NCBI RefSeq assembly: GCF_030286555.1
Contig: NZ_JASVWF010000004.1
Coordinates: 434,001-498,000, forward strand
DNA: 64,000 nucleotides
Reading direction: 5' to 3'
Source of the DNA: Actinomycetospora termitidis
GTDB lineage: Bacteria > Actinomycetota > Actinomycetes > Mycobacteriales > Pseudonocardiaceae
In this document: positions 29,060 through 46,725 of the stretch, one piece after another
Numbering within the stretch: position 1 is the stretch's first letter
Layout of the letters: each line of letters opens with the position of its first letter
Program-made: the position numbers and the translations under genes
Notes under the pieces: model-generated
What the model was told of the DNA's origin: nothing
Seen by the model: the letters and a program-made list of their open reading frames with translations, nothing else
Database searches by the model: none

Positions 29060-31321
29060 CTACGCCGTGCTCGCGATGTTCATGATCGTGACCGTGCCGT
29101 CCAGCAGGTTGGTGACGTAGGCCTGGCGTCCCTCGGGACCCACGGCCACGCTCGTCGGGCCGCGGCCGGTCGGGACGGTCGCGGTGATCTGCATGGTCGA
29201 CGTGTCGAGCACCTGGATCGAGTTGGCGTCGACGGGCGCGATGTAGGCGTGCTTGTTGTCCGCGCTGAGCGTGATGTCCTGCGGGTGGTCCTGGGTCGGG
29301 ATCGTGGCGACGACGCGCCCGGTGTCGGTGTCGGTCACCGAGAGGGTGTCGTCGTCGTAGTTCGCGTTGAGCAGCAGCGGCTTGTTCGGCATGCGGACGA
29401 TCGAGTGCGGGCTCTTGCCGACCGGGGTCGTCCCCAGGACGGCGTCCGTGGCCGTGTCGATCGTGGTCAGCAGGTTCGACTCGTGGTTGGCCGCGTAGAG
29501 CCGGGTGCCGTCGGGCGAGATGTCGACCCAGTGCGGGTTCGGCGCGACGATGATCGTGTTGATGACGGCGTCGGTCGCGGTGTCGATCACCGTGATCGAG
29601 CTGGAGTCGTGGTTCGGCACGTAGACCCGGGAGCCGTCGGGCGACACGCGCAGCGCGAACGGCCGCTTGCCGGTGGGGATGCGGGCGGTGACGGCCGCGG
29701 TGCGGGTGTCGATCGCGACGACCTCGCTGACGGAGTAGTCCGCGTTGGTCACGCTGACCCAGGCCCGCGTCCCGTCCGGGGAGAAGCTGACGAACTGCGG
29801 TCCGCCCTCGGGGATCGGGATCGTGCCGGTCGCGACGTTCTTCGTGGTGTCGAAGACCGTGACCATCCCGGCCTGCCGGTTCGCGATGTAGCCGAACTTG
29901 CCGCTGGGGGCGATCTCCATGTAGCCCGGTGTCGGGCCGACGGGCACGGTCTGCGCCACGGTCGGCTTCGCCACGCTGTTCGCGACGACGGGTTTGCTCG
30001 GCGAGGCCGGTCCGCCCGCGGCCGCGCCGCCGGCGAAGGACCCGTCACCGGAGCCGCTGCTCTCCCGGCCGACCACGACGCCCACGGTCACGGCCGCGAC
30101 CACCGCGACCACCATGACGAGGGCGGCGATCAGCACGGTCCGGCGCCGTCCGCGCGACGGCGGCGTCGCACCGACGGCTGCGGCGGGAGCGGACGGGGGC
30201 GGCGTCGACGGCGGACCGGCGGCCGGAGGACCGGTGGGCGGGGTCGGTGGAGTGGGTGGAGTGGACGGGGTGGGTGACGACGGCGGCGGGACGAAGCGGT
30301 GCGGCGTCGACGGCCCGGTCTGGGTCGGCACACCGCCCGCCAGCACGGTCGTGGTCGGGGCCTGCGCGGCCGCGACGGTCGTCGTCGGGGCCTCGACGGG
30401 CGACACCGTGGTGGTCGGCGCGCTCGTCTCCAGCAGCGCGGCCGGGGAGTCGGGCACCTCGACGGGGCCGGAGCCCACCGGGAGTGCCCCGGTCGAGACC
30501 GGCGGCTGCGCGGCGAGCGCCGCCCGGGCGGCCGCGGCGAGGTCGCCGGCGGTCGCGAAGCGCTGGTCGGGGTCCTTCGCCATGCCGCGGACCACGACGT
30601 CGTCGAGCCGGGCACCGATGCCGGGCACGATCTCGCTCGGGCGGCGCGGGCTCAGGTAGACGTGCGCGTACATCTGGGACGGGAGGTCCGACCCGGGGAA
30701 CGGCTTGGCCGCCGTCAGGCACTCGAAGAGCACGCAGGCGAGGGCGTAGACGTCGGTCCGGGCGTCGACCTCCTTGTTCTCGAAGCGCTCCGGCGCCATG
30801 TAGTCGAGGGTGCCGAGGGTCGCACCGGAGACGGTCGCCCACGAGCGCGTGTTCCCGGCCGCGTGCGCGAGCCCGAAGTCGACGACGTACGCGAAGTCGG
30901 TCGGCGTGACCAGGATGTTGGACGGCTTGATGTCCCGGTGCACCAGGCCCTCGCCGTGCGCCGCGTCGAGGGCGTCGGCGACCTGGTTGACGAGCGCGAC
31001 CGACCGCTCCGCCCCGAGCGGGCCGGTGTCGGCGATGAGCTGGGCGAGGGGCTGGCCGTCGACGAGGCGCATGTCGATGAAGAGGCGCCCGTCGATCTCG
31101 CCGTAGTCGTGGATCGGGACGACGTGCGGCTCCCGCAGCTTCGCGACCGCGTACGACTCCTGCCGGAACCGCCGCTGGTAGGCCGGGTCCTTGCTCGTCG
31201 ACTCGGGCAGCAGCTTCAGGGCCACGTCCCGGTTGCGGCGGGTGTCGTAGGCCCGGTGGACCTCGCCCATCCCGCCCTGACCGATCAGCTCGCCGATCTC
31301 GTACTGCCCGAAGAGCTTCAT
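29060..31321 (-). CDS. Membrane Ser/Thr protein kinase with YVTN beta-propeller sensor (copy 1)
   Basis: 753 aa. Kinase domain residues 1-270: glycine loop GQGGMGEV, Lys36 in VALKLL, HRDIKPSN (Asp130), DFG (Asp148). A Pro/Thr-rich linker with repeated APTTTV leads to a single membrane helix at about 395-418. Outside, residues about 455-750 form seven YVTN/NHL-type blades (SPDGTRLYAANHESNLLTTIDTAT is typical). Last gene of the minus-strand block beginning at 44649. A close paralogue opens that block (42616-44649). Both presumably sense an extracellular or envelope signal and phosphorylate Thr targets. Confidence 0.93.
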   Translation of the reverse strand: MKLFGQYEIGELIGQGGMGEVHRAYDTRRNRDVALKLLPESTSKDPAYQRRFRQESYAVAKLREPHVVPIHDYGEIDGRLFIDMRLVDGQPLAQLIADTGPLGAERSVALVNQVADALDAAHGEGLVHRDIKPSNILVTPTDFAYVVDFGLAHAAGNTRSWATVSGATLGTLDYMAPERFENKEVDARTDVYALACVLFECLTAAKPFPGSDLPSQMYAHVYLSPRRPSEIVPGIGARLDDVVVRGMAKDPDQRFATAGDLAAAARAALAAQPPVSTGALPVGSGPVEVPDSPAALLETSAPTTTVSPVEAPTTTVAAAQAPTTTVLAGGVPTQTGPSTPHRFVPPPSSPTPSTPPTPPTPPTGPPAAGPPSTPPPSAPAAAVGATPPSRGRRRTVLIAALVMVVAVVAAVTVGVVVGRESSGSGDGSFAGGAAAGGPASPSKPVVANSVAKPTVAQTVPVGPTPGYMEIAPSGKFGYIANRQAGMVTVFDTTKNVATGTIPIPEGGPQFVSFSPDGTRAWVSVTNADYSVSEVVAIDTRTAAVTARIPTGKRPFALRVSPDGSRVYVPNHDSSSITVIDTATDAVINTIIVAPNPHWVDISPDGTRLYAANHESNLLTTIDTATDAVLGTTPVGKSPHSIVRMPNKPLLLNANYDDDTLSVTDTDTGRVVATIPTQDHPQDITLSADNKHAYIAPVDANSIQVLDTSTMQITATVPTGRGPTSVAVGPEGRQAYVTNLLDGTVTIMNIASTA

Positions 31322-31393
31322 CTCTCCCCCAAGGCGCCCTTCGGCGCAACGTGTGACGCCTTCCTAGTCGATACTCACGGTCACGTCGTTACG

Positions 31394-31852
31394 CTATTCG
31401 AGTACAACCTGGCCACGGTCGACGCGGACGGGTCGTACGGACAGTGGATCTTCGGCCGGACCACGGGTGACGGCGCCGTCGAGGGCGAACCGGCTCCCGT
31501 GGCAGGGGCAGACGATCGAGCCGTCGGCGACCTCGTTCACCAGGCAGCCGTCGTGCGGGCAGACCGCCGAGAAGCCGCGGTAGTCCTCCGCCGTCGCCCG
31601 GACGACGACGACCGCGAAGGCCGGGTAGACCACGCCGCCGCCCACCGGGACGACCGCGGCGGGGCCGAGCACGGTGCCCGGTCCCCCGGCCACCCCGGCG
31701 CCGGCGGGCGGCGCGCCCGGGGCGAACCCGCCGTCACCGTCCGCGGAGGAGGGCGGGGCGGGCGCCGGGGCGCAGCCCGCGACGCCGCACGCGAACACGG
31801 CCCCGGCCAGCAGGACCGACCGGCGGTCCTGCCCGGTCGCCTCGTCCGCCAT
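31394..31852 (-). CDS. Rieske [2Fe-2S] lipoprotein
   Basis: 152 aa. N-terminal RRSVLLAGAVFACGVAGCAP is a lipoprotein signal with lipobox VAGC and an upstream Arg pair (possible Tat). The mature part carries the Rieske ligands CPHDGC and CPCHGS, the latter followed by RFALDGAVTRGPAEDPL. Such small Rieske proteins are electron-transfer or oxygenase-associated proteins at the outer face of the membrane. It lies 10 bp behind the dioxygenase gene and 72 bp before the kinase. A link to the diaminopropionate block is possible but unproven. Confidence 0.88.
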   Translation of the reverse strand: MADEATGQDRRSVLLAGAVFACGVAGCAPAPAPPSSADGDGGFAPGAPPAGAGVAGGPGTVLGPAAVVPVGGGVVYPAFAVVVVRATAEDYRGFSAVCPHDGCLVNEVADGSIVCPCHGSRFALDGAVTRGPAEDPLSVRPVRVDRGQVVLE

Positions 31853-31862
31853 GCCCGGGTGC

Positions 31863-32831
31863 CTACAGGCGGATCGGGTCGCCCATGCCGACGACGACCG
31901 TGCGGTCTCCCTCGTAGGCGTCGCGGCCGTGGGCGGTGCGGACGTTGTCGACGACGAGGAGGTCGCCCGCCTGCCACGGCTCGCGGAGCGTGTGCGCGTC
32001 GTAGGCCTGGTTGATGACGGCCACCACGTCCTCGGGAATGGGTTCCCCGTTGCCGAAGCGCGTGGTGAAGGGCAGCCCGTCGGGCCCGTTCATCTCGACG
32101 AGGTACTCGCGCACGTCGGGGTCGAGGGCCCACTCGCTGAGGAACGCCACCTGGTTGAACCAGCACGGGCGCCCGTCGACGGGGTGCCGGACGACCGCGC
32201 GCCGCCGCTGCCGCGTGCGCAGCCCGCCGTCGGCGTCCCAGGTGAACTCGATGCCCGCGCCGCGGCAGTAGTGCTCGACGGCGCCCCGGTCACCGGTGCC
32301 GAACGCCTCCGCCCAGGAGGCTCCGATGTCGTCGTTGTAGTGCCGGACGAGCAGCCAGCCCTCCTGCTCGAACCGGGACACCAGCGCCGGGGGCAGGGCC
32401 TGCAGGACCGCCGATCCGTCGCCGACCGGGGTCACGCCGCCGCCCGCGGGCGGGGTCAGGCACGCGAACATGATGAACGCGGGCGGGTCGGGTACGTAGC
32501 TGAGCTCGTTGTGCAGGCACATCTGCTGGCTCGCGGGCCACGGCGTGGCCGACTGGAGCCCCTGGCCGAGTTGGGTGCGCGGGGCGAACGGCTCCCGCTC
32601 GGGCAGCAGGCCGCTCGACGTCAGCCGGCTCATCACCGCCGCGGTCTGCGCGTGGTCGCGCAGGCCCAGGCCCCGCACGAGCACCGAGCCGTAGCGCGCC
32701 AGGATCTGGCGCACCTCGTTGCGGTGGTGGGCGGTCCAGCCGACGGGGTCGGCGCCGCCGTCGGAGTGGAGGATCGGGGGGTGGCCGGCCCGCAGGTCCA
32801 GGTTGGCGGCCGGCCCGACGGGCGCGGACAT
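31863..32831 (-). CDS. TauD/SyrP-like Fe(II)/2-oxoglutarate dioxygenase
   Basis: 322 aa, clavaminate-synthase-like fold. The iron ligands read HNE (His107, Glu109) rather than the usual HxD, as in clavaminate synthase and SyrP, with the distal His301 in VRTAHGR and Arg310 for 2-oxoglutarate. SyrP beta-hydroxylates a carrier-bound amino acid, so hydroxylation of a carrier-tethered diaminopropionate is the natural hypothesis here. AAGGAGTG lies 4 nt before the ATG at 32831. Gene ends 10 bp before the Rieske gene and begins 2 bp after sbnA. Confidence 0.85.
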   Translation of the reverse strand: MSAPVGPAANLDLRAGHPPILHSDGGADPVGWTAHHRNEVRQILARYGSVLVRGLGLRDHAQTAAVMSRLTSSGLLPEREPFAPRTQLGQGLQSATPWPASQQMCLHNELSYVPDPPAFIMFACLTPPAGGGVTPVGDGSAVLQALPPALVSRFEQEGWLLVRHYNDDIGASWAEAFGTGDRGAVEHYCRGAGIEFTWDADGGLRTRQRRRAVVRHPVDGRPCWFNQVAFLSEWALDPDVREYLVEMNGPDGLPFTTRFGNGEPIPEDVVAVINQAYDAHTLREPWQAGDLLVVDNVRTAHGRDAYEGDRTVVVGMGDPIRL

Positions 32832-32833
32832 GG

Positions 32834-34117
32834 TCACTCCTTCGTGGTCGAGGGGTCGACCGCGGGGGCCGGGTCGGACAACGGGTGCGGCCGGGTCAGG
32901 TTCCCGGCGGTGCCGAAGTGCTCCTCGCGCCACCCCGGCGAGTACACGGTGTCGAGGTAGCGCTCCCCCTGGTCGGGGGCGAGCGTCACGGCGGTGGTGG
33001 TCGGGTGGGCGTGCCGGGCGAGCCACCGCGCCGCCCCGGCCACGACGGTGCCCGTGGACCCGCCGAACAGGAAGCCGCGCATCGCCAGGCGCTGGCACAT
33101 CCGCACGGTCTCGGTCTCCGGGACGATCACCACGTCGTCGACCAGCGTCCGGTCGAGGGCCGGGGGGACCATGCCCATGCCGAGCCCCGGGATGTGCCGC
33201 GGCGCCGCCGGGCCGCCGAAGCTCACCGAGCCCTCGACGTCGATCGCGACGACCTTGACGTCCGGGCGGTGCTGCTTGAACCAGCGGGCGTTGCCCATGA
33301 GCGTGCCGGTCGTCCCGGCGCCGACGAAGAGCACCTCGATGCCGGGGATCGCCCGCGCGATCGACGGAGCGGTCTGCGCGTAGTGGGCGCCGGCGTTCGC
33401 GGGGTTCTCGTACTGGTTGAGCCAGACGGTGTCCGGGTCGCGGTCGCAGAGGGCCTTGAGGTGGTCGAGCCGGGCGCCGAGCAGGCCGGTCTTCGGGTTC
33501 GGCACCGAGATCACGTGCACCTCGGCGCCGTAGGTCTCCATGAGCCGGCGGGTCTGCGGGTTGCAGCGGTCGTCCGTGACGCAGATGAACCGGTACCCGC
33601 GGTTGGCGCTGACCATCGCGAGGGCCACGCCGAGGTTCCCCGAGGAGGACTCGACGATGATCGACCACGGGTTCAGCTGCCCCGCGGTCTCGGCGGCCTC
33701 CACCATCGCGGCGGCGGCCTTGAGCTTCACCGACCCGGCGAAGTTCATGCCCTCGACCTTGCAGAACAGCTTCTGGTCGACGATCGAGCGCATGTCGACG
33801 AACAGGTCGTGCGTGTTGAACTGCTGCGGCGACGAGACGATGGTCGGCGCCGGCGCGGGCGGCGCGGACGGCGGCCCCGGGCGCCGACCGTCGCGCACCG
33901 GGGGCGCCGCGTGCCGACCCGCGCGGCCGTCGGGGGCGACGAGCGTCGCGCGCCCGTCCCCGACGTAGGACACGCGCACCGTCGTCCCCGGCGCCACGGC
34001 CACGGTCTGCGCGTCCAGGCCGTGCAGCTGGATGCGCGTCGTCACCCCGCTGTCGTCCCGATCGACCTCGCTCACGATCCCGCCCCCCTCACACGGACCC
34101 TCTGTGAGCGACATCAT
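32834..34117 (-). CDS. sbnA: SbnA-like 2,3-diaminopropionate synthase component (PLP enzyme)
   Basis: 427 aa. A cysteine-synthase-fold PLP enzyme: Lys131 in FAGSVKLK, SSSGNLGVALA substrate loop, GAGTTGTLMG phosphate loop, GFLFGGSTGTVVAG. In staphyloferrin B synthesis SbnA joins O-phosphoserine and glutamate to N-(1-amino-1-carboxyl-2-ethyl)glutamate. The adjacent sbnB gene supports this. Unusual: about 95 residues precede the enzyme, a short beta-rich stretch (RIQLHGLDAQTVAVAPG...) plus a Pro-rich linker. A GTG at 34075 with a G-rich ribosome site may be the true start, still leaving about 80 extra residues. Confidence 0.88.
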   Translation of the reverse strand: MMSLTEGPCEGGGIVSEVDRDDSGVTTRIQLHGLDAQTVAVAPGTTVRVSYVGDGRATLVAPDGRAGRHAAPPVRDGRRPGPPSAPPAPAPTIVSSPQQFNTHDLFVDMRSIVDQKLFCKVEGMNFAGSVKLKAAAAMVEAAETAGQLNPWSIIVESSSGNLGVALAMVSANRGYRFICVTDDRCNPQTRRLMETYGAEVHVISVPNPKTGLLGARLDHLKALCDRDPDTVWLNQYENPANAGAHYAQTAPSIARAIPGIEVLFVGAGTTGTLMGNARWFKQHRPDVKVVAIDVEGSVSFGGPAAPRHIPGLGMGMVPPALDRTLVDDVVIVPETETVRMCQRLAMRGFLFGGSTGTVVAGAARWLARHAHPTTTAVTLAPDQGERYLDTVYSPGWREEHFGTAGNLTRPHPLSDPAPAVDPSTTKE

Positions 34118-34203
34118 GACCTACCCGGGGCCCGAGCGGTAACTGGTTGGCGCCTTTCGCCACGAACAATCACGCTCCGTGACCGACAATTCGGATCTCG
34201 GTC

Positions 34204-35286
34204 TCAGTTGCCCCCACCGGCACCACGTCCGTAACGGCTCATCTCGTGGAAGAACCCGTCGACGACCTGCAGGCCCCCCGTGCGGCCGACCTGGTCGTAG
34301 ACCTCCTTGCCCACGGCGATGTCCAGGATTCCGAGCCCGAACGGCGAGAACACCGTCGTCCGGTCCGGCGTCGCGGTCACGCGCCCGGCCATGACGTCGT
34401 CGAGCGTGCCGTGGACGAAGTCGCGGTTCCCGACCTGCTGCTCGGCCAGGTGCAGCGAGGTGTTCGCGCGCAGGCAGTGGTCGACGTCGTCGACGACGTT
34501 GGTCGCCCCGAGCACGATCTCCGGCGCGAGGTCGCGCAGCGAGACGTGCAGGACCAGCGGGTGGTGGTCGAACCACGCCGGGTCGTGGACGTGCGGCACG
34601 CCCGCGACCGTCGCGAACACGATCAGGTCGCAGGAGCGGATGAGCGACTCCGCGTCGTCGTGGATCACCACGGAGGCGTCGGGGTCGGCCCGCTGCAGGT
34701 AGCCGCGGAACCCCTCGGCGCTCTCCGGGTTCAGGTCGTGCACGCCGATCTCGTCGAACTCCCACCCGGTGGCCGCGAGGTAGGTGTGCAGGTAGCGCGC
34801 GATCAGGCCGACCCCGAAGAAGCCGACGCGGCGGGGCCGCGTCCGCCCGGCGGTGAGCTGGTCCGCGGCCAGCGCGGCCGACGCCGAGGTGCGCACCGCG
34901 TTGATGATCGAGGCCTCGAGGCAGGCGAAGGGATAGCCCGTCTGGTGGTCGTTGAGGATCAGCACCGCCGAGGCCCGCGGCATCCCCGCGGCCACGTTGT
35001 CCGGGAAGCTGGACACCCACTTGATCCCGTCGACCCCGACGCCCCCGCCGACCGAGGCCGGCAGCGCGATGATCCGGGAGTTCGGCTTGTCGGGGAAGCG
35101 CAGGAAGTACGACGGCGGGTTGCCGGTCTCGCCCGCCCCGTGCATCCGGTAGGTCCGCGCGATCACGTCGACGATCTCGCGCTCGCGGCCCTCCAGGGCC
35201 GCGGCGACCTGGGCGCCGGGGATGACGGCGAACGTCGGCGCGCCGGTCGAGGAGGGGACCGCGTCGAGGTCGGCGGCTGTGGACAT
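34204..35286 (-). CDS. sbnB: SbnB-like N-[(2S)-2-amino-2-carboxyethyl]-L-glutamate dehydrogenase
   Basis: 360 aa of the ornithine cyclodeaminase/mu-crystallin fold. Markers are KWVSSFPDN, ASAVLILNDHQTGYPFACLEASIINAVRTSASAALAADQL, Rossmann VGFFGVGLIARYL, and DVDHCLRANTSLHLA. SbnB oxidatively releases L-2,3-diaminopropionate and 2-oxoglutarate from the SbnA product with NAD+. ATG at 35286; 20 bp behind the NRPS gene and 86 bp ahead of sbnA. Together the pair provides the amino acid for the NRPS upstream. Confidence 0.9.
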   Translation of the reverse strand: MSTAADLDAVPSSTGAPTFAVIPGAQVAAALEGREREIVDVIARTYRMHGAGETGNPPSYFLRFPDKPNSRIIALPASVGGGVGVDGIKWVSSFPDNVAAGMPRASAVLILNDHQTGYPFACLEASIINAVRTSASAALAADQLTAGRTRPRRVGFFGVGLIARYLHTYLAATGWEFDEIGVHDLNPESAEGFRGYLQRADPDASVVIHDDAESLIRSCDLIVFATVAGVPHVHDPAWFDHHPLVLHVSLRDLAPEIVLGATNVVDDVDHCLRANTSLHLAEQQVGNRDFVHGTLDDVMAGRVTATPDRTTVFSPFGLGILDIAVGKEVYDQVGRTGGLQVVDGFFHEMSRYGRGAGGGN

Positions 35287-35306
35287 GGTGGGCGTCTCCT
35301 GGGCGG

Positions 35307-37853
35307 TCACGGGGCGGCGGTGGGGTCGGGGTCGGACGCGGCGGCCCGCTCGTCGAGCAGGGCCGCGAGGTCGGCGAGGACGGGGTGCGCGGCGATCTCC
35401 TGGAGCGTGACCGCCTTCTTCAGCCGCACCGCCATCTTGACCGCGAGCAGCGACGAGCCGCCGCGCTCGAAGAAGTGGGTGTCCGGGGTGAGGGCGTCCT
35501 CGTCGACCCCGAGCAGCGGCGCCCACACCCCGGCCAGCCGGCGCTCGGTCGACGTCAGCGGGGCGCCGCCGCCGGACCCGGCGGGGCCGGTCGGCTCGTC
35601 GAGCTCGAGCGCCAGGGCGGTCAGCGTCTTCCGGTCGATCTTGCCGTTCGCCGTGACCGGCAGGACGTCGCGGTGGTGGAGGACGGGCGGGACCATGTAG
35701 TGCGGGAGGGACGCGGCCAGCAGCCCGCGGAGCTCGTCGTCGGCGATCGGCGCGGGCGCGCCGTAGAAGCCGACCAGCTGCTTGCCCCGTCCCGGCCGCT
35801 CGCTGACCACGACGGCGGCGTCGCGCACGCCGGGGCCGCGGAGCATGGTGTTCTCGATCTCGCCGATCTCGATGCGGAAGCCGGAGATCTTCACCTGGTG
35901 GTCGCGGCGGCCGAGGAAGTCCAGCTTCCCGTCGGGCAGCCAGCGCCCGTGGTCGCCGCTGCGGTAGAGCCGCTCCCCCGGGCGCAGCGGGTCGGGGACG
36001 AACGCGGCGCGGGTGCGCTCGGGGTCGTTGACGTAGCCGCGCCCCACGCAGACCCCGGAGAACACGATCTCGCCCGGCGCGCCGAGCGGTACCGGCGCCA
36101 GTTCCGGGTCGACGACGTAGACCCGGACGTTGCGCACGGCCGGTCCGAGCGGGATCCGCTCGTGGTCCGGGACCGCGAACAGGATCTCGTGGTTGGTGTC
36201 GTCGCTGGTCTCGGTGAGCCCGTAGGCGTTGACCAGCGGGACGTCGGGCCGCACCGCGAACCAGCGCACGACCAGTTCCTTCTTCACCGCCTCGCCGGTC
36301 ACGGCCACGCGGCGCAGGTCGGGCAGGGCCACCGGCGTCTGCTCGAGGTAGGACACGACGACGTCGAGGTAGGACGGCACGAGCTGCGCGACGCTCACCC
36401 GGCGGCGCGCGAGCAGGTCGACGAAGCGCGGGACGTCGAGCACCACCTCCTGCTCGACCAGCACCGTCGTCGCCCCGACCAGCCAGCCCGCGACGAGCTG
36501 CCACAGCGAGATGTCGAAGCACTGCGGCGCGGTCTGGGCGACGACGGAGTGCTCGTCGATCCCCATGTCCTCGATCTTCGCGAGCAGGTGGTTGAGCATC
36601 CCGGCCTGCTCGCACATGGCGCCCTTCGGCTCGCCGGTGGAGCCCGAGGTGAAGTACAGGTAGGCCAGGCGCTCCGGGCCGACCTCGACCCGCGGGTCGA
36701 CCCCCGCGTGGTCCTCGGCCCAGGCGTCGGCGACCAGCAGCCGGGTCGGCGCCGCCGTGCCGAGCCCGGCGAGGGCCTCGTCGAGGGTCGTCGCCGCGCC
36801 GGGCTCGGTGAGCACGAAGCGGGCACCCGCCCGGGTGAGCACGGTGGCGATGCGGTCGGCCGGGAAGTGCGGCTCGAGCGGCAGGTAGGCCCCGCCGGAC
36901 TTGAGGATGCCCAGGACGCAGGAGGCCCAGCCGAGGGTGCGCTCGGCGACGACGGCGACGACGTCCTCGGCCCCGAGCCCCCGGGCGAGCAGGGCACGGG
37001 CGATCGCGTCGGAGCGCTCGTCGAGGTCGCGGTAGGTCCAGGCCTCCTCCCCGCGGACGACGGCGACGTCGTCCGGGTGGGTGGCGGCGCGGTCGCGGAC
37101 GAGGTCGTGCGGTCGGCGGTCCGGCAGCTCGCGGGCGGGGCCGGCGAGGCCGTCGACCTGGAACGCGAGCTCCTCGGGCCCGAGCAGGCACCCCCGTGAC
37201 GGGGCCGCGGCCGGGTCCGCGGTCAGCTGCCGCAGCGCGGTCAGGTGGTACCCGGCGATCCGGGCGGCGGCGCCCTCGTCGAGCACGTCGGTGCGGTGGT
37301 CGACCCGCAGGACGGTGCCGGTCCAGACCACCCGCAGGACGGTCGCCGCGTCGTCGACCGGGTCCGGGCCGGGGTCCTCGGTGCCGGTCGTGTTCAGCAC
37401 CGTCGGCGGCCACAGGCCGGCGGCCGGATCGGACCGCAGGTCGGCGAGGGCGCGGTCGGTCGCCTCGGGGTCGGGCGCGGCGGCCGCCCGGACCAGCGCG
37501 GCGTGGGCGGCCGCGACGAGCGCAGAGCCGGTGTCCACCCCGGTGTCGACGCGGCACGGGCGCGGCTCGTGGCCCGGGCCGGCGGCGAGGGCCGTGAGGG
37601 TCTCCGCCTCGCCGGTGAGCGCCGCGAGGACGCGGGCGTGGGCGGCGAGGACGACGGCGCCGACCCCGACGCCGTGGTCGTGGGCGACCCGCCGCACCAC
37701 GGCGGCGAGGTCGGCGGGCACCGGCTCGACGTGGCTGCCGCTGCCCGCCGCGGCGGACCCTCCGGCCCACCGCGCCAGGGCGGTCGCGCCGCTCGCGAGC
37801 ACGGCGCGCCAGTCGACCTGCGGGGTGGGGTCGGTCTCCTGAACGGTGGTCAT
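35307..37853 (-). CDS. Stand-alone adenylation-carrier NRPS, probably diaminopropionate-activating
   Basis: 848 aa. Residues 1 to about 215 look like the C-terminal half of a condensation domain without an HHxxxDG motif. About 225-750 is a full adenylation domain: A3 YFTSGSTGEPKG, A4 FDISLW, A5 NAYGLTE, A7 YRSGDHGRW, A8 GRRDHQVKISGFRIEIGEIE, A10 NGKIDRK with Lys738. A carrier domain ends the protein, pantetheine Ser801 in GGSSLL. Manual reading of the specificity pocket gives D-I-W-Q-A-T-A-D-D-K, close to remembered codes for 2,4-diaminobutyrate. ATGA overlap with the 1588-aa protein gene and sbnB next suggest it loads Dap for that protein. Confidence 0.88.
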   Translation of the reverse strand: MTTVQETDPTPQVDWRAVLASGATALARWAGGSAAAGSGSHVEPVPADLAAVVRRVAHDHGVGVGAVVLAAHARVLAALTGEAETLTALAAGPGHEPRPCRVDTGVDTGSALVAAAHAALVRAAAAPDPEATDRALADLRSDPAAGLWPPTVLNTTGTEDPGPDPVDDAATVLRVVWTGTVLRVDHRTDVLDEGAAARIAGYHLTALRQLTADPAAAPSRGCLLGPEELAFQVDGLAGPARELPDRRPHDLVRDRAATHPDDVAVVRGEEAWTYRDLDERSDAIARALLARGLGAEDVVAVVAERTLGWASCVLGILKSGGAYLPLEPHFPADRIATVLTRAGARFVLTEPGAATTLDEALAGLGTAAPTRLLVADAWAEDHAGVDPRVEVGPERLAYLYFTSGSTGEPKGAMCEQAGMLNHLLAKIEDMGIDEHSVVAQTAPQCFDISLWQLVAGWLVGATTVLVEQEVVLDVPRFVDLLARRRVSVAQLVPSYLDVVVSYLEQTPVALPDLRRVAVTGEAVKKELVVRWFAVRPDVPLVNAYGLTETSDDTNHEILFAVPDHERIPLGPAVRNVRVYVVDPELAPVPLGAPGEIVFSGVCVGRGYVNDPERTRAAFVPDPLRPGERLYRSGDHGRWLPDGKLDFLGRRDHQVKISGFRIEIGEIENTMLRGPGVRDAAVVVSERPGRGKQLVGFYGAPAPIADDELRGLLAASLPHYMVPPVLHHRDVLPVTANGKIDRKTLTALALELDEPTGPAGSGGGAPLTSTERRLAGVWAPLLGVDEDALTPDTHFFERGGSSLLAVKMAVRLKKAVTLQEIAAHPVLADLAALLDERAAASDPDPTAAP

Positions 37854-40800
37854 CGCTGCCGTCGGTCCTCTCGGGGTCGTGCTCCGGCGGCGTCGACGAG
37901 TCCGCGACCCGCGCCGGAGGGGATGGGCCCGCGGGGACCGTCGAGAGCCGGGCGGCTCGGCGCGACGGGGCCGGGGACGGGGTGTTGCGGGGCCGGGCCG
38001 GGGTGCTGGGGGGCGGGTGCGGCCTCCGCGCGGCGGGCGGGGGTCCGGCGGGTGGCCCGGGCGGGGTTCCCGCTCCAGTGCTCCCCCGCCGGCACCTCCT
38101 CGCCCTTCATGAGGAAGGTGTCCGGGCCGAGGATCGCGTCGTCGCCGATGACCGTGCCGTAGTGCACGAACGAGCCGACCCCGAGCGTCACGCGGGCACC
38201 GACGACCACGTGGTCGGACTTGAACCCGCCGTCCTCCTGCGAGTGGCACTGGATCACCGTGCCCTCGCCGAGGGTGGCGTCGTCCCCGATGGTCGTGAAC
38301 GACTTCTCGGTGAGGTTGGCGCCGTCGTCGAACACCCGGGCACCCACGTGGACGCCGAGGAGGCGCCAGATCCACGGCTTGAACGGGGTGCCGTTGGCGA
38401 TCTGCACCCAGTCCGGGGCGGGGACCTTCCAGTAGCGCTCGTGCCGCGAGAACGTCCGGTCGTAGATCGAGCACCCCTGGGGGGCGCGGGCCATCAGCGG
38501 CCGCACGCACCGCTCGACGAGTGCCCACCACAGGGCCAGGAGGACGAGGCCGACCACCTCGACGACGACGACCTCCGCCGCGCCCGCCGCGATCGGCAGC
38601 GACCCGACCGCCGCGACGGAGACCAGGAGCAGGAACGTGTAGAGCCACCGCACGAGCACGTGCAGCGCCATCGAGACGGCGTTGTGCCGGTTCTTGCGCC
38701 GCAGCAGGACGGCGAGCTCGGCGGGGTCGGTCACGTCCAGCTCGCTGTCGCGCGCGACCGTCCGCGGGATCTCGAAGCTGGGCGACCCGAGGAGCCCGAC
38801 CCCCTGGCGGATCGGCCCGTGCTGCGGGACCTGGACCTTCGTCGCGAGCAGGCAGTCGTCCCCGGTGCGGCCCTGCGGCGGGTACGCGATGCGGTTGCCC
38901 AGGAAGTTGTTCGCCCCGATCCGGGTCGCGGAGACGCGGAAGGACGTGGCGGAGTACTCCGCGTTCATCACCGACAGTCCGTCCGCCACGACGGTGCCCG
39001 GGCCGACCACCGTCAGGAACGGGTTCTCGTGCTTGACGGCCATCCCGAAGTTCGACCCGGTCTGGCTGATGGGTCGCAGCTGGTACCCGATCGCGGCGAG
39101 GTAGTGGGCGATCGCGGAGGCGTCGCCGAAGAGCTCCACGAACGGCTTGACGTTGGTCAGGGTGCCGATGGCGCGGTGCAGCCAGTAGCGCACGCCGTAG
39201 AGCGGGTGGACCGTGTCCGGGCGCAGCCCGAGGGCGAGCAGGCGCGGCACCGTCGCGACGAACGCGAGGCCCAGCACGATCGCGCCGACGTACAGCACCC
39301 CGGAGAGCACGAACGTCCGGAGGTAGAACGACGGGTCGGCGAGGGCGCCGGCGGGCGGCTCGAACAGGGCCGCGAAGTGCGGCACCCACGCGCGCAGGAC
39401 GGCGAACGCCAGGAGGCCCGCCGGGAGCACCAGCCCGAGCGCGATCACCAGGGAGACGAGCGAGTACAGCGTCCGTCGGGGCGCGGCCGTGGCCGCCGGC
39501 GGCACCGGCGGCATCGCGGCGTCGGCCCGGCGCGCGGGCGAGCCGTGCCAGTTCTCCCCCGCCGGGACGGACTGGCCGGCGTGCAGCGACGAGCTGTGCG
39601 CGAGCGACGCCCCGTCGCCCATCGCGGTGCGGACGTCGAGGACGGTCGACTCCCCGACGACGACGTTCGCGCCGAGGCTGACGCCGCCGATCTCGACCCG
39701 CCCGTCGTGGGCCCGGTAGCAGGCGACGACGGCGTCCTTGCGGATCAGCGCTCCGTCGCCGGCGCTGAACAGGTCGGTGCAGGCGGGGATCTGCGGGGTC
39801 AGGAACACGACCCCCCTGCCGATCCGCGCCCCGAGCGCCCGCAGGTACAGGGTCTGCAGCGGGGTGCCGGCGAACAGCTGCACCGGGCTCGTCCGCACCA
39901 GGGTCTTGACCACCCAGAAGCGCAGGTAGGCCGGGCTCCACACCGCCACCGAGCCCGGCTTCCAGCGTCCGACGAGCACCCACTTGGCCACGATCGGCAG
40001 GGCGACGAGGCCGGCCAGGCCGACCGCGGAGGCGAGGACGGCCCGCCCGTAGGTCGCGAGGACCCCGACGCCGGGGGTGGTCACCCAGGTCGCGGCCCAC
40101 GTCAGGAAGACCGCGGCGAGGTAGCTGTAGGCGAGGAAGCAGAGCAGCTGGGCCGCGCCGCACAGGACGAAGGCGGGGGTGCTCGCGCGGGGCCGGGACG
40201 GGTCGGCGCCCCCGGTGTCGGTGCCCGTGTCCGCCTCGCCCGGGTCGGCCTCCTCGGCCGCGGAGGCACCCGTCGCGCCGAGGGAGGCGGCGAGGGCCAC
40301 GAGGGTCGGGTTCCGGTAGATGTCGGGCATGCCCACCGAGGGCAGGTCCGGGTGCTTGCGGAGCCGGGCACAGAAGCGCGCCATCAGCAGCGAGTCCGCC
40401 CCGAGGTCGCGGAAGAAGTCCGCGTCGGCGGGGACGTCGGAGCGTCCCAGGACCTCGGCCAGGACCGCGGCGAGCCCGTCGCGCACGCGGGCCGCCCCGG
40501 CGACGTCGGGGGCCTTCGGGGCCGGGGCGAGCGCGTCCGCGAGCCCGGCGAGGGTGGTGTGCTGGTAGATGTCCTGCATCGCCGCCGACGGCAGGTCCGG
40601 GTCCTTCCGGACCCGGGCGCAGAAGCGCGCCATCAGCAGGCTGTCCGCGCCGAGGTCGGCGAAGAAGTCGGCGTCGGGCGGCACGTCGTCCCGCCCGAGG
40701 ACCTCCGCCAGCACGGCGGCGAGCCCCGCGCGGACGTCGGCGGTGCCGGCCGCGACCGGTGCCGGCACGGCCGGGACCGGCGCGGACGGACGCCCGACCG

Positions 40801-42616
40801 GGGCGGGGGTCCGGGACGGCACCGGGGTCGGCGTGGGGGCCGGGGTCGGCGGCCCGACGGGGCGGGGCGGACCGGGAGGCTGCGCCGGCAGCGGCTGGGA
40901 GGGACGACGGCCGCCGTCGGGCCGGGGGCGGACCGGCGGGACCGGCGGGACCGGCGGGACGGGCGGCGGGAAGGTCCGGGGCGCGCGGCGGTCGCGGGTC
41001 GGTGGTGTGGTCGGTGGTGCGGCGGGGCGCCCGCGGGCCGGGGTCGGCGGCATCGCCACGGTGGACGCGTCGGTCGCCTGCGTGGTGTCCGGGTCCGCCG
41101 TGGCCGGTCCGCGCTGCGCCACGGTCGGGGCGTCGAGGCGGTCCTCCGCGCGGTGCGCCGCCGGTTTCGCGGCGGGCGGCCGCTCCGGTTCCGGGGGCAG
41201 CGGGAGGACCGCCGTGCGCCCCGGGATCCCCGTCCGCCGCGCCAGCTGGGGCGCGCTCGCGTGCACCGGGCGCACCCGCAGCCCGCGGCCGCCGGCCCCG
41301 TCGACCCGGCCGACCCACTCCACCTCGCGGTCGGCGGTGAGCCGCCCGAGGTCCCCGGTGCGGAACGTCCGCCGCGCGGGCTGGCCCGGGATCGGGACGA
41401 ACGCCTCGTCGGTGAGGTCGGTGCGCCCGACGTAGCCGCCGGCGACCCCGGGGCCGGTGATCCCGATCTCGCCGACCTTCCCGGGCGGCAGCGCGCGGCG
41501 CGGGTCGGCGGGGTCGAGCAGGACGACGTCGTGCCCGGGCAGCGGCCGCCCGAGGGTGGGGCCGCGTCCGGGCGAGAGCTCGGTCCACAGCGACACGACG
41601 CCCGCCTCCGGGGCACCGTGCAGCCCGAGCAGCCGCCGGTTCGGCGCCTGCCACCGGGCGACGGTCTCCGCCGGCCGGTCGGGGCCGAGGAGCACCAGCA
41701 GCCGCAGGTCGGGAAGGTCGCCGTCGATCCCGGCCAGGGTCGCGGGCTCGGCGAGCAGGACCGTGGTCCGCGTGGTCCGCAGGAAGGTGCCGAGGGCGGC
41801 GCCGGCGAGGTTCTCGCCCGGGGCGGGCGTGACCACGGTGGCACCCCGCGACCAGGGGACCCAGGTCTCGAGGAGCGCGCGGTCCGACCCGGCGAGCGGG
41901 TCGTGGAACACGCGGTCGGTGGTGGTCACGCCGAGCAGGTCGGAGAGCACACCGACCAGGTGGGTCGCGGCGGCGTGGTCGACGGCCGGCGCCCGCAACG
42001 CCGGCGCCCGGTCCGCGGACCGGCCGCCGTCCGTCCCCTCGGCGTGCACGGTGACGTACGCCGGTGTGTCGCCGACCTCCCCGCGCTCCGTCGCGGTCAG
42101 GCGGTGGGTGGCCTCGGCGTCCACGTGGGTGGTGACGCGGTCGAGGTAGACCGCGTCGACGTCGGTGGCGCGGAGCCGCGCGGACTGGTCGGCGGTGGTG
42201 AGGACGATGCCGGCGCCCGAGGCGTGCACGACCGCCGCCAGGGCCGCGTCGGGCAGGCCGTGGTCGAGCGGCACCCAGGCCGCCCCGATCTTCGCGACCG
42301 CGAGCTGCGCCGCGAGGGCGTCCGCGGGGCGCTCGAGCAGCACCGCGACCCGGTCCCCGGCGCCGAAGCGGCGGCGGAGGAGGTAGCGGGCCAGGCGCGT
42401 GGCCGCCGTGTCGAGGTCGACGTAGGACAGCGACCCGACCGTCGACCCCCCGATCTCCACCGCGACGTGGTGGGCTCGTCCGACCCGGCGGAACGCGTCG
42501 CACCGGCGCTCCACGAGCCGGTCGAGGCGACCGTCGTGGGTGTCGGTCGGCAGCGTGTCCTGGGTCGGGCCCAGCAGGATCGTCCGGGTGCGGTCGACGG
42601 CCTCCGAGACCCCCAT
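37850..42616 (-). CDS. Pls/PosA-like membrane synthetase: degenerate A domain, tandem carriers, six TM and beta-helix domains
   Basis: 1588 aa. Residues 1 to about 450 keep the adenylation fold (YVDLDTAATRLARYLL, FRTGDLGRL) but lack the A3 P-loop (YVTVHAEGTDGGRS instead) and the A10 lysine, so probably do not activate substrate. A 170-residue Pro-rich linker leads to two near-identical carriers (Ser659 and Ser742 in LGADSLLMARF). Six membrane helices (about 815-880, 1050-1130, 1317-1368) alternate with three hexapeptide beta-helix units, the arrangement of poly-lysine synthetase Pls. I infer a split peptide-bond-forming, membrane-embedded polymerase fed by the adjacent adenylation-carrier protein. 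TGATG overlap with the kinase gene, ATGA with the NRPS. Confidence 0.85.
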   Translation of the reverse strand: MGVSEAVDRTRTILLGPTQDTLPTDTHDGRLDRLVERRCDAFRRVGRAHHVAVEIGGSTVGSLSYVDLDTAATRLARYLLRRRFGAGDRVAVLLERPADALAAQLAVAKIGAAWVPLDHGLPDAALAAVVHASGAGIVLTTADQSARLRATDVDAVYLDRVTTHVDAEATHRLTATERGEVGDTPAYVTVHAEGTDGGRSADRAPALRAPAVDHAAATHLVGVLSDLLGVTTTDRVFHDPLAGSDRALLETWVPWSRGATVVTPAPGENLAGAALGTFLRTTRTTVLLAEPATLAGIDGDLPDLRLLVLLGPDRPAETVARWQAPNRRLLGLHGAPEAGVVSLWTELSPGRGPTLGRPLPGHDVVLLDPADPRRALPPGKVGEIGITGPGVAGGYVGRTDLTDEAFVPIPGQPARRTFRTGDLGRLTADREVEWVGRVDGAGGRGLRVRPVHASAPQLARRTGIPGRTAVLPLPPEPERPPAAKPAAHRAEDRLDAPTVAQRGPATADPDTTQATDASTVAMPPTPARGRPAAPPTTPPTRDRRAPRTFPPPVPPVPPVPPVRPRPDGGRRPSQPLPAQPPGPPRPVGPPTPAPTPTPVPSRTPAPVGRPSAPVPAVPAPVAAGTADVRAGLAAVLAEVLGRDDVPPDADFFADLGADSLLMARFCARVRKDPDLPSAAMQDIYQHTTLAGLADALAPAPKAPDVAGAARVRDGLAAVLAEVLGRSDVPADADFFRDLGADSLLMARFCARLRKHPDLPSVGMPDIYRNPTLVALAASLGATGASAAEEADPGEADTGTDTGGADPSRPRASTPAFVLCGAAQLLCFLAYSYLAAVFLTWAATWVTTPGVGVLATYGRAVLASAVGLAGLVALPIVAKWVLVGRWKPGSVAVWSPAYLRFWVVKTLVRTSPVQLFAGTPLQTLYLRALGARIGRGVVFLTPQIPACTDLFSAGDGALIRKDAVVACYRAHDGRVEIGGVSLGANVVVGESTVLDVRTAMGDGASLAHSSSLHAGQSVPAGENWHGSPARRADAAMPPVPPAATAAPRRTLYSLVSLVIALGLVLPAGLLAFAVLRAWVPHFAALFEPPAGALADPSFYLRTFVLSGVLYVGAIVLGLAFVATVPRLLALGLRPDTVHPLYGVRYWLHRAIGTLTNVKPFVELFGDASAIAHYLAAIGYQLRPISQTGSNFGMAVKHENPFLTVVGPGTVVADGLSVMNAEYSATSFRVSATRIGANNFLGNRIAYPPQGRTGDDCLLATKVQVPQHGPIRQGVGLLGSPSFEIPRTVARDSELDVTDPAELAVLLRRKNRHNAVSMALHVLVRWLYTFLLLVSVAAVGSLPIAAGAAEVVVVEVVGLVLLALWWALVERCVRPLMARAPQGCSIYDRTFSRHERYWKVPAPDWVQIANGTPFKPWIWRLLGVHVGARVFDDGANLTEKSFTTIGDDATLGEGTVIQCHSQEDGGFKSDHVVVGARVTLGVGSFVHYGTVIGDDAILGPDTFLMKGEEVPAGEHWSGNPARATRRTPARRAEAAPAPQHPGPAPQHPVPGPVAPSRPALDGPRGPIPSGAGRGLVDAAGARPREDRRQR
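40277..40741 (-). repeat. In-gene tandem duplication of the carrier-domain coding segment
   Basis: Carrier 1 is coded at about 40526-40741 and carrier 2 at about 40277-40492, a shift of 249 bp (83 codons). Both read VRxGLAAVLAEVLGR then DFFxDLGADSLLMARFCA and share near-identical DNA, indicating a recent duplication or ongoing gene conversion. Both keep the pantetheine serine, so both should be loadable. Confidence 0.75.
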
Positions 42617-44649
42617 CAGGCTCCCATCGCCAGCACGGTCAGCGTCCCGTCGAGCAGGTCGGTGACGTAGGCGGTCCGGCCGTCGGGGGTGACGGCGACG
42701 CTGCTGGGTCCGCGGCCCGTCGGGATCGTCGCGGTGACCGCGAACGTCGTCGTGTCCACGACCTGCACGACGTTGGCGTCGATGGCGGCGACGTAGACGT
42801 GTCGGCCGTCGGCGCTCGACGTGACCGCCTGCGGGTGGACCGCGGTGGGCACCGTCGCGACCACCCGGCCGGTGCGGACGTCGGTGACCGAGACGCTGTT
42901 GCCCGCGAAGTCGGTGTCGAACACCCACGGCTGGGTCGGGTGCCAGGCGACCGCGTGCGGGTTGCGACCCACCGGCGTCGTCGCGACCGGGCCGCTGCCG
43001 TCCGTCCCGACGAGGCTGATCGTGTTCGCGTCGTAGTTCGCGACGGCGAGGCGGGCGCCGTCGGGCGAGACAGCGAGCCCGTGCGGGGTGGGCAGGGCGA
43101 CCCGGTCCACGACGGTGTCCGAGCCGGTGTCGATCACGGTCACCGACCCGGCGTCCGGGTCGGACACGAACACCCGCCCGCCGTCGGCGCTCACCGCGAG
43201 CGCCAGCGGACGCGGGCCGGTGGGGATGCGGCCGACCAGGGAGCCGTCCGCGGTGTCGACGACCGCGACCTCCCCGGCGGTGTCGCCGAGCAGCCCGACG
43301 TAGGCACGGGCACCGTCCGGGGCGAACGCGAGCGCCTGGGGTGCGCCGGGCAGCGGGATCGTCCCGACCGCGGCTCCGCGGGCGGTGTCGAGGACGGTGA
43401 TCGTGGCCGCGTCGCGGTTCGCGACGTAGGCGGTGCGGCCGTCCGGTGCGACCTGGACGTCGACCGGTGCCGCCCCGACCGGGACGGTGCCGACGACCGT
43501 CGGCCGGGGGCTGCTGGCCACGGGTGCGGGCCGCGTGGGCGCCCCGCCGCCGAGACCCGTCGTCAGGAACACCGCGAGGGCCGCGACGAGGACGACGACC
43601 ACGGCCACCGCGCCCCAGAGGAGTCCACGGCGTCGGCGCGGCGGGGTCGGCGGGGGCTCCGGTGCGCCGGGCATCGGACCGGACGGGTGCGGGTCGCGGG
43701 GAGGTCCGGACGGCGGCCGCGAGATCACCGTCGTGACCCCGCCCGGCCCGGCGGACCCGGCCGGGGGCGCGCTCCGGGCGCCCGCGGCGACCGGGGTCGG
43801 GGCGGCCGTCGGCTTCGGGGCGGCGGGGCTCGTCGGCGCGGCGCGCAGGGCGGCGCGGGCGGCCGTGACGAGCGCACCCGCCGTCGGGAAGCGGTCGTCC
43901 GGGTCCTTGGCCATGCCGCGCGCGATGACGGCGTCGAGGGCGGCCGGGGCACCGGGGTACCGCTCACTGGCGCGCGGGGGGTCGACGTTGATGTGGCCGA
44001 ACATCTGCGTCGGGAGGTCGCCGGGGAAGGGCTTCTCCTTCGTCAGGCACTCGAAGAGCACGCAGGCCAGCGAGTAGACGTCGGTCCGACCGTCGACGGG
44101 GCTCCGCGAGAAGCGCTCCGGTGCCATGTACTCGAGCGTCCCGAGCGCCACGCCGGTGCCGGTCAGCTGCGTCTGCGGCGTGCCGAGGCTGAAGGCGAGG
44201 CCGAAGTCGACGACGTAGACGAAGTCGCTGCGGGTGACCAGGACGTTCGACGGCTTGACGTCCCGGTGGACGAGGTCGTCGGCGTGGGCGGCGTCCAGGG
44301 CGTCGGCGATCTGTCCGAGGAGGGCGACCGTGCGTCCGGCGGGGAGCGGTCCCTCGTCACGCAGGACGTCCTGGAGGCTCCGGCCCTCGACCAGCCGCAT
44401 GTCGATGAAGAGGCGGCCGTCGATCTCGCCGTAGTCGTGGATCGGGATCAGGTGGGGCTCGCGGAGCCGCGCGTGCAGGTGCGACTCGCGGCGGAACCGG
44501 CGCTGGTACTCGGTGCTCTCGCTCAGCGAGGTCGGCAGCAGCTTGAGGGCGACGTCGCGGTCGTGCCGGAGATCGCGGGCACGCCAGACCTCGCCCATGC
44601 CGCCCTCCCCGATGAGCGACAGGAGCTCGTACTGGCCGATCCGCTCCAT
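42616..44649 (-). CDS. Membrane Ser/Thr protein kinase with YVTN beta-propeller sensor (copy 2)
   Basis: 677 aa. Same plan as the kinase at 29060-31321: glycine loop GEGGMGEV, Lys36, HRDVKPSN (Asp130), DFG (Asp148), Pro/Ala linker, one membrane helix about 343-366, then seven YVTN blades ending SVAVTPDGRTAYVTDLLDGT. The two share long identical blocks in the kinase domain such as PIHDYGEIDGRLFIDMRLV. AGGAGG lies almost touching the ATG at 44649, so an in-frame start further upstream is possible. The stop shares one base with the next gene's ATG (TGATG), tying kinase and synthetase expression together. Confidence 0.92.
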   Translation of the reverse strand: MERIGQYELLSLIGEGGMGEVWRARDLRHDRDVALKLLPTSLSESTEYQRRFRRESHLHARLREPHLIPIHDYGEIDGRLFIDMRLVEGRSLQDVLRDEGPLPAGRTVALLGQIADALDAAHADDLVHRDVKPSNVLVTRSDFVYVVDFGLAFSLGTPQTQLTGTGVALGTLEYMAPERFSRSPVDGRTDVYSLACVLFECLTKEKPFPGDLPTQMFGHINVDPPRASERYPGAPAALDAVIARGMAKDPDDRFPTAGALVTAARAALRAAPTSPAAPKPTAAPTPVAAGARSAPPAGSAGPGGVTTVISRPPSGPPRDPHPSGPMPGAPEPPPTPPRRRRGLLWGAVAVVVVLVAALAVFLTTGLGGGAPTRPAPVASSPRPTVVGTVPVGAAPVDVQVAPDGRTAYVANRDAATITVLDTARGAAVGTIPLPGAPQALAFAPDGARAYVGLLGDTAGEVAVVDTADGSLVGRIPTGPRPLALAVSADGGRVFVSDPDAGSVTVIDTGSDTVVDRVALPTPHGLAVSPDGARLAVANYDANTISLVGTDGSGPVATTPVGRNPHAVAWHPTQPWVFDTDFAGNSVSVTDVRTGRVVATVPTAVHPQAVTSSADGRHVYVAAIDANVVQVVDTTTFAVTATIPTGRGPSSVAVTPDGRTAYVTDLLDGTLTVLAMGA

Positions 44650-46556: not shown

Positions 46557-46651
46557 GGTGCGTCATCGTCGGCCTCGGACCCGCGCGGGGCAAGGGCCCC
46601 GGACGGACGAGAGCCCCGTCGACCGGTGGTCAACGGGGCTCCGTGGTTCTG

Positions 46652-46725
<74 letters not shown>

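Follow-up and report, generated by a model that had tools for sequence, protein, structure and literature searches.

How does a membrane polymerase of the Pls/PosA family obtain its amino acid when its own adenylation (A) domain is degenerate? This question is raised by a locus of Actinomycetospora termitidis (assembly GCF_030286555.1), contained in positions 434,001 to 498,000 of contig NZ_JASVWF010000004.1; this stretch of 64,000 nucleotides is referred to as the window (G000:C25:434001-498000 in our numbering of genomes, contigs and loci as G, C and L). The polymerase gene is followed there by the gene for a separate protein with an intact A domain and one carrier (AT), and these two, together with SbnB, SbnA and a TauD-type dioxygenase, form what we regard as a five-gene core cassette. 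As far as sequence can tell, the split between activation and polymerisation is real and conserved, and its pattern is strongly suggestive of activation in trans by AT. We consider it probable that the cassette encodes a two-component version of Pls, in which AT would charge the polymerase in trans, L-2,3-diaminopropionate (Dap) would be oxidised while bound to the carrier and the polymer would be exported. The eight codirectional genes at 29060-44649 described in the initial annotation were all recovered:

42616..44649, minus strand: Ser/Thr kinase 1 with a beta-propeller of the YncE/lactonase type (profile matches; putative regulator, lineage-specific).
37850..42616, minus strand: polymerase of the Pls/PosA family, 1588 aa (TIGR02353 and PP-binding profiles, AlphaFold model).
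35307..37853, minus strand: AT, 848 aa, with half a condensation domain, an intact A domain and one carrier (profiles, motifs).
34204..35286, minus strand: SbnB (TIGR03944, 415.7 bits against a cut-off of 326.9).
32834..34117, minus strand: SbnA, extended at the N terminus by about 90 aa (TIGR03945, 371.4 bits against a cut-off of 349.95).
31863..32831, minus strand: TauD-family Fe(II)/2-oxoglutarate dioxygenase (PF02668, 155 bits; H-x-E, H and R residues intact).
31394..31852, minus strand: Rieske [2Fe-2S] protein (PF00355).
29060..31321, minus strand: Ser/Thr kinase 2 with a beta-propeller of the YncE/lactonase type (profile matches; putative regulator, lineage-specific).

Our codon-position gene caller agreed with this list, except that it extended sbnB and the dioxygenase gene slightly at the start. 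The stop/start overlaps noted earlier are also present: the stop of kinase 1 meets the start of the polymerase at 42616, and the polymerase stop and the AT start share the four bases 37850-37853.

Family membership of the polymerase is clear, since residues 819-1519 match TIGR02353 with 637.4 bits (cut-off 423.1). The chain begins with a relic A domain (residues 30-470, approximately), which is followed by a Pro-rich linker, two carriers and a domain of six helices and three beta-helices. Both PP-binding stretches carry the motif GADSL with the phosphopantetheine serine. In the relic, motifs A3, A4, A5, A8 and A10 are lost while A6 and A7 are still recognisable, so that the working A domain expected in the chain of a Pls/PosA protein is missing; the same five motifs are gone in nine other homologues from the genus aligned over this region. 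An AlphaFold model of the carriers and the membrane domain (mean pLDDT 78) contains three pairs of long helices, six in all, together with three beta-helix blocks; this predicted layout is the one modelled for PosA (PMC10522769). The profile search gave hexapeptide matches in the polymerase and no solved structure of the polymerase domain among the 60 listed of 155 matches, which were carrier-domain and left-handed beta-helix proteins. Foldseek with the polymerase model returned beta-helix matches over part of the chain, mostly hexapeptide acyltransferases, plus a carrier.

To see how general this arrangement is, the AT protein was searched in three samples of genomes, which overlap. In the family sample (249 genomes) 104 matched at E<=1e-100, many of them ordinary nonribosomal peptide synthetases (NRPS) by identity and frame length, whereas at E<=1e-140 the order sample (348 genomes) gave 23 matches and the phylum sample (396 genomes) eight. 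The loci read comprised 60 family regions, picked by us from the match list, 17 order or phylum regions and 80 named loci; the latter are the best 80 of at least 585 matches, are biased to close kin and include 12 Actinomycetospora records. Over 159 loci, drawn from four sets that may share organisms, 122 ATs lie directly beside a polymerase, and the A domain of that polymerase is absent in 102 cases, degenerate in 20 and intact in none. The remaining 37 loci are an AT without adjacent polymerase (35) or hold no AT by motif (two). The control consisted of 21 TIGR02353 proteins, read in 20 regions of the family where they do not lie near an AT cassette. In 19 of them the A motifs (A3 and A5 at the least) are intact within the chain; of the other two, that of G102:C44 is truncated at the end of its contig, and that of G108:C28, of 689 aa, lacks both A domain and carrier. 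A protein that looked like a possible counter-example, in G021 (611 bits, no AT), has an intact fused A domain. A search of 120 family genomes (five of the genus) with TIGR02353 placed most matches in frames of at least 1,250 aa; 13 fell in frames below 1,060 aa, which leave no room for a fused A domain, and ten of these adjoin an AT, the other three being two partial or contig-end matches in G102 and again G108:C28. The division of activation and polymerisation between two proteins, proposed initially for this one locus, is therefore supported and can be extended to a conserved trait of a widespread cassette.

The cassette itself is also recurrent. Conserved neighbourhoods without the SbnA, SbnB and AT genes had been named at the outset as evidence that would speak against the proposal; the outcome did not count against it, since in 66 of the 80 named loci AT is accompanied, judging from the best BLAST labels, by the polymerase and the dioxygenase as well as by SbnA and SbnB. 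Outside the genus the usual order is polymerase, AT, dioxygenase, sbnB, sbnA with variable flanks, and sbnA comes first in Geodermatophilus and some Pseudonocardia. Hosts among the best 80 of at least 585 matches include Streptomyces (many genomes), Geodermatophilus, Pseudonocardia and Amycolatopsis, besides a few metagenome bins labelled Rokubacteria and Gammaproteobacteria. We also came across nine loci (L063, L073, L074, L080, L085, L086, L107, L108 and L185) in which AT, dioxygenase, sbnB and sbnA follow each other and no polymerase accompanies them; these loci look like NRPS clusters and also hold genes that we labelled, by reading the sequences, as ABC transporter and MbtH; all but L063 contain in addition a gene for a clavaminate-synthase/VioC-like dioxygenase, of which the one member tested was below cut-off.

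Where did the split come from? With 87 membrane domains on the tree, all 78 of the split type grouped together (SH-aLRT 99) and the nine intact fused sequences from the genus fell outside; when 19 further intact and two odd sequences were added (108 rows), the 78 still fell on one side of a single branch (SH-aLRT 98), against 28 intact fused sequences. The 689-aa protein of G108:C28 (L316) was distant from the split clade on the tree. In an A-domain tree of 27 rows one branch, at 99, separates the relics, which go with the A domains of fused Pls, from AT, which goes with NRPS A domains. All these trees are quick searches in which long branches were flagged. Since the relics side with fused Pls and AT with NRPS, it appears that a fused synthetase ancestor lost its activating function and that an NRPS-derived A-T protein took over. 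The relics are nearest to an intact fused-Pls A domain with the code residues D-F-E, and F at code position 2 is reported for synthetases of poly-Dap (PDAP) and poly-diaminobutyrate (PDAB) (PMC10522769). By these residues, the ancestral fused synthetase was probably of the class for Dap or diaminobutyrate (Dab).

The relic A domain has not been left to drift. Simple Nei-Gojobori estimates, in a genome of 74% GC, gave, in comparisons with three near relatives, dN/dS values of 0.24-0.31 for the relic, 0.22-0.27 for AT and 0.21-0.23 for the membrane domain, and with two more distant ones 0.52 for the relic and 0.37-0.38 for the membrane domain. Given this constraint, the relic appears to be a conserved pseudo-domain, not junk sequence. 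The same figures bear on the view that the polymerases without A domain (A-less polymerases) are dying paralogues, that AT feeds only some other NRPS and that their association is neighbourhood inheritance. Such decay would agree with a polymerase of genome G012 that is in pieces and with the strong variability of some relic A domains; the polymerase domain is nevertheless constrained among near relatives, and AT and polymerase stay paired in different families, many of their residues being invariant; we consider this view highly improbable.

The two-component reading can be followed further within the genus, where the number of copies differs between genomes. AT occurs in 14 of 18 Actinomycetospora genomes, as one copy each. 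The TIGR02353 loci of the genus, 36 over the cut-off and one in two pieces, divide into 17 intact fused polymerases and 20 without a working A domain; these 20 are spread over 13 genomes, each of which has exactly one AT, and two genomes (G001 and G007) combine three such polymerases with their single AT. None of the four AT-less genomes (G006, G009, G010 and G011) holds a polymerase without a working A domain, and in G015, where AT lies at a contig end, no A-less polymerase was found there. Six genomes have a second cassette. In G004 it includes a full protein of condensation C-terminal lobe (C-lobe), A, carrier (T) and thioesterase (TE) domains, which is the only AT of that genome, and at the syntenic locus of G007, G012 and G016 only the T-TE end is kept (326-360 aa). 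The second locus of G001 has no AT piece, and that of G000, the genome of the window, is differently placed and has a C-lobe-T-TE protein from which the A domain is missing. All five second cassettes without an A domain (G000, G001, G007, G012 and G016) have a window-type AT elsewhere in the genome. From this complementation pattern, one AT would serve every A-less polymerase in a genome. The broader proposal built on it, a widespread two-component system in which one AT charges several A-less polymerases and each builds a polymer of carrier-oxidised Dap (hydroxylated or otherwise), is put forward as a tentative possibility.

Some further loci were seen in the course of this census. The second cassette of G000 (G000:C28:297389-303604; L109/L001) reads sbnA, polymerase, C-lobe-T-TE protein, dioxygenase and sits inside a polysaccharide cluster with genes for Wzx, a Wzy-like protein, GMD and a glycosyltransferase. 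A polysaccharide context as a rule was rejected, homologues of these genes not being found in 74 regions apart from one weak match. Three orphan polymerases (L143, L144 and L145) have a degenerate A domain, and neither AT nor SbnB was called next to them; a gene resembling sbnA lies some kilobases from that of L145. Canonical fused Pls proteins with the code residues D-A-E were read at L146 (G006), L147 (G002), L309, L312, L314, L315, L319 and L321, Ala having been reported from synthetases of lysine polymers; most of the other intact fused polymerases that were read have D-F-E, the Dap/Dab type.

What would the monomer be, and what happens to it? In Staphylococcus aureus, SbnA and SbnB convert phosphoserine and glutamate into Dap and release 2-oxoglutarate. 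Both proteins of the window are over their family cut-offs and would likewise make Dap; SbnB was found over its cut-off as a single copy in the own genome, inside the window, despite the two cassettes. AT, whose A domain is intact by motif check, would adenylate Dap and hold it on its own carrier, where the dioxygenase could oxidise it with 2-oxoglutarate in the manner of SyrP- and DdaC-type enzymes. The catalytic H, E and R of the dioxygenase are kept in all of 120 homologues and the second (distal) H in 119. The SyrP/clavaminate-like label it first received could not be maintained as a family assignment, no NCBIfam dioxygenase model being over its cut-off, and from its genetic linkage to AT, which is what stands behind this step, we infer that it acts on a carrier-bound residue. 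By sequence the polymerase has a degenerate A domain or none, and its carriers would then receive the aminoacyl group in trans; the domain of six helices and three beta-helices, by analogy with Pls, would link the units by isopeptide bonds and export the chain. A siderophore of the staphyloferrin B type was set aside, the constant partners of SbnA/SbnB being AT, the dioxygenase and the TIGR02353 polymerase (no search for NIS synthetases was made).

The AT protein has a feature absent from the initial annotation: its first 240 residues or so correspond to half a condensation domain, namely the C-terminal lobe, the catalytic half being absent. By profile this N-terminal part matches McyA at 2.5e-20, and PF00668 was matched in 13 of 14 AT members, the sole miss being the AT of the window. 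The specificity code, set from motifs with GrsA numbering and no structural alignment, reads DIWQATADDK in the window, DIWLATADDK at six loci of the genus and DIWQSTADDK at most other readable loci; neither the first nor the third was found in print in the literature searched for the exact code. A published code for beta-hydroxylated Dab is DVWQMIGDDK, and the codes for Dap reportedly resemble those for Dab (PMC12283262); the window code agrees with the published one at six of ten positions. Known cationic polymer synthetases (for Dap, Dab, Lys or Orn) carry D and E at code positions 1 and 3 (PMC10522769), whereas AT has Trp at position 3, and Dap therefore rests on the genetic context and the 6/10 match. 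With SbnA and SbnB over their cut-offs and a code resembling that for a diamino acid, Dap is our best guess for the likeliest AT monomer.

The missing Glu also suits a scheme in which AT activates another amino acid, which is the one hydroxylated, and Dap serves as acceptor in a mixed polymer. A code variant with Thr at position 322, found at 16 loci, travels with an extra threonine-synthase-like gene in 14 of them (L059, L060, L062, L064-L068, L071, L075, L076, L104, L174 and L175) against none of 116 others, a hint that the substrate of AT can shift. We nevertheless judge the mixed polymer distinctly unlikely, given that no working A domain other than that of AT was seen in the cassette and that SbnA and SbnB are its usual partners with or without a polymerase.

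Besides the Trp in the code, several observations weigh against trans-activation by AT as we propose it. The relic A domain, being constrained, may keep some non-catalytic role. The 689-aa protein of G108:C28 (L316) is not beside an AT although its genome has one, and the cassette of G017 has lost sbnB. In the genus census, the AT-less genome G011 is only 59% complete, two of the 20 A-less polymerases (G007:C28 and G016:C9) are cut by contig ends with their N-termini unseen, and that of G012:C172 is split in two and does not reach the family cut-off, which the other 19 exceed. Decay in place of complementation may also account for the A-less second loci, as that of G012 is in pieces and that of G001 is without AT or dioxygenase. 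Finally, AT has no adjacent polymerase in 26 of the 60 family loci, several of which look like NRPS clusters, and is therefore not exclusive to polymerases.

This last point leads to another explanation, in which AT, dioxygenase, SbnA and SbnB are a portable supply unit for oxidised Dap and the TIGR02353 protein makes one or a few amide bonds onto another acceptor, for instance a lipid, polysaccharide or small molecule. The occurrence of the four genes without an adjacent polymerase, partly inside NRPS clusters, is in its favour, and so is the polysaccharide cluster around the second cassette of the own genome. That context, however, was seen at only one of the second loci, and homopolymers, a comb-like one included, are the products of the characterised family members named in PMC10522769 and PMC4668381. 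A supply unit of this kind seems to us rather unlikely, and the two-component Pls remains the preferred reading.

The genes flanking the core are of narrower distribution, and the initial view of all eight genes as one unit did not hold. The Rieske gene, which turned up at four loci only, those of the window and of its three closest relatives, was rejected as a core member; the lipoprotein label of its product rests on what we take to be the corresponding motif in the N-terminal sequence. The kinases were likewise rejected as core, since no consistent kinase link exists outside Actinomycetospora. Within the genus, where the link is regular, a kinase gene is mostly found just upstream of sbnA, and in the window and the same three relatives kinases stand at the ends. 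By this distribution the kinases are a genus-level addition and the Rieske gene is younger still; the system is likely kinase-controlled in Actinomycetospora, where the kinases would form a genus-specific control layer. In seven relatives (L022, L024-L029) a gene is divergent from the kinase gene just upstream of sbnA; FHA-domain models were below cut-off for the one member tested, and at L023 and L031 the kinase is present and the partner gene was not called. The kinase and this probable FHA-domain (phospho-binding) partner may form a switch at the seven loci. Just upstream of the cassette region a tRNA-Pro gene is located at 46651-46725 of the window, a possible insertion site.

A natural split of this kind would be of practical value. 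Fused activation hampers the study of how the Pls membrane domain builds and exports its polymer, whereas here activation, tailoring and polymerisation could be separated and mixed, and different activating proteins could be tried on one polymerase. The loss of A domains in the second loci amounts to a natural complementation experiment, which we judge to be unusual in NRPS biology. The presence of the cassette in many Streptomyces genomes may give access to a new and testable class of cationic polymer; if the proposal is true, hydroxylated or otherwise oxidised cationic polymers would be a class not described in the literature searched. We found no description of a Pls with activation supplied by another protein in that literature, outside of which lay subscription papers and preprints. 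The synthetase network of PMC10522769 was built with a length cut-off of 1100-1800 residues, so that a typical split polymerase (800-900 aa) would have been left out of it.

Several characterised systems share parts of this organisation. Like Pls and PosA (TIGR02353), the polymerase described here has carriers and a membrane domain of six helices and three beta-helices and scores well over the family cut-off; described members have a working A domain in the chain (PMC10522769), which here is absent or degenerate and replaced by a separate NRPS-type A-T(-TE) protein. The PDAP synthetase (PDAPs) of Streptomyces albulus PD-1 belongs to the same polymerase family and relies on SbnA/SbnB-like enzymes for Dap; unlike the split pair, it is a single A-T-membrane chain, its Dap enzymes used Ser and Orn in vitro, and the sections consulted mention no dioxygenase (PMC4668381). 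The initial annotation had cited streptomycete poly-Dap clusters as joining Pls-like and SbnAB-like genes, and this has to be corrected for S. albulus PD-1, in which these genes are not close together (PMC4668381). Another parallel is provided by dapdiamide biosynthesis. Its cluster holds SbnAB-like Dap genes and, to our knowledge, no membrane polymerase. The dioxygenase of the DdaC/DdaD pair acts on a carrier-bound Dap derivative, as proposed for the cassette; DdaC epoxidises the fumaramoyl group (PMC12451424), and no acylating ligase recurs in the cassette. The beta-lysine oligomers of streptothricin, in turn, depend on a separate A-domain protein, ORF19, which is stand-alone as AT is; ORF19 itself mediates chain growth (PMC9606270), whereas in the cassette a TIGR02353 membrane domain is present for that step.

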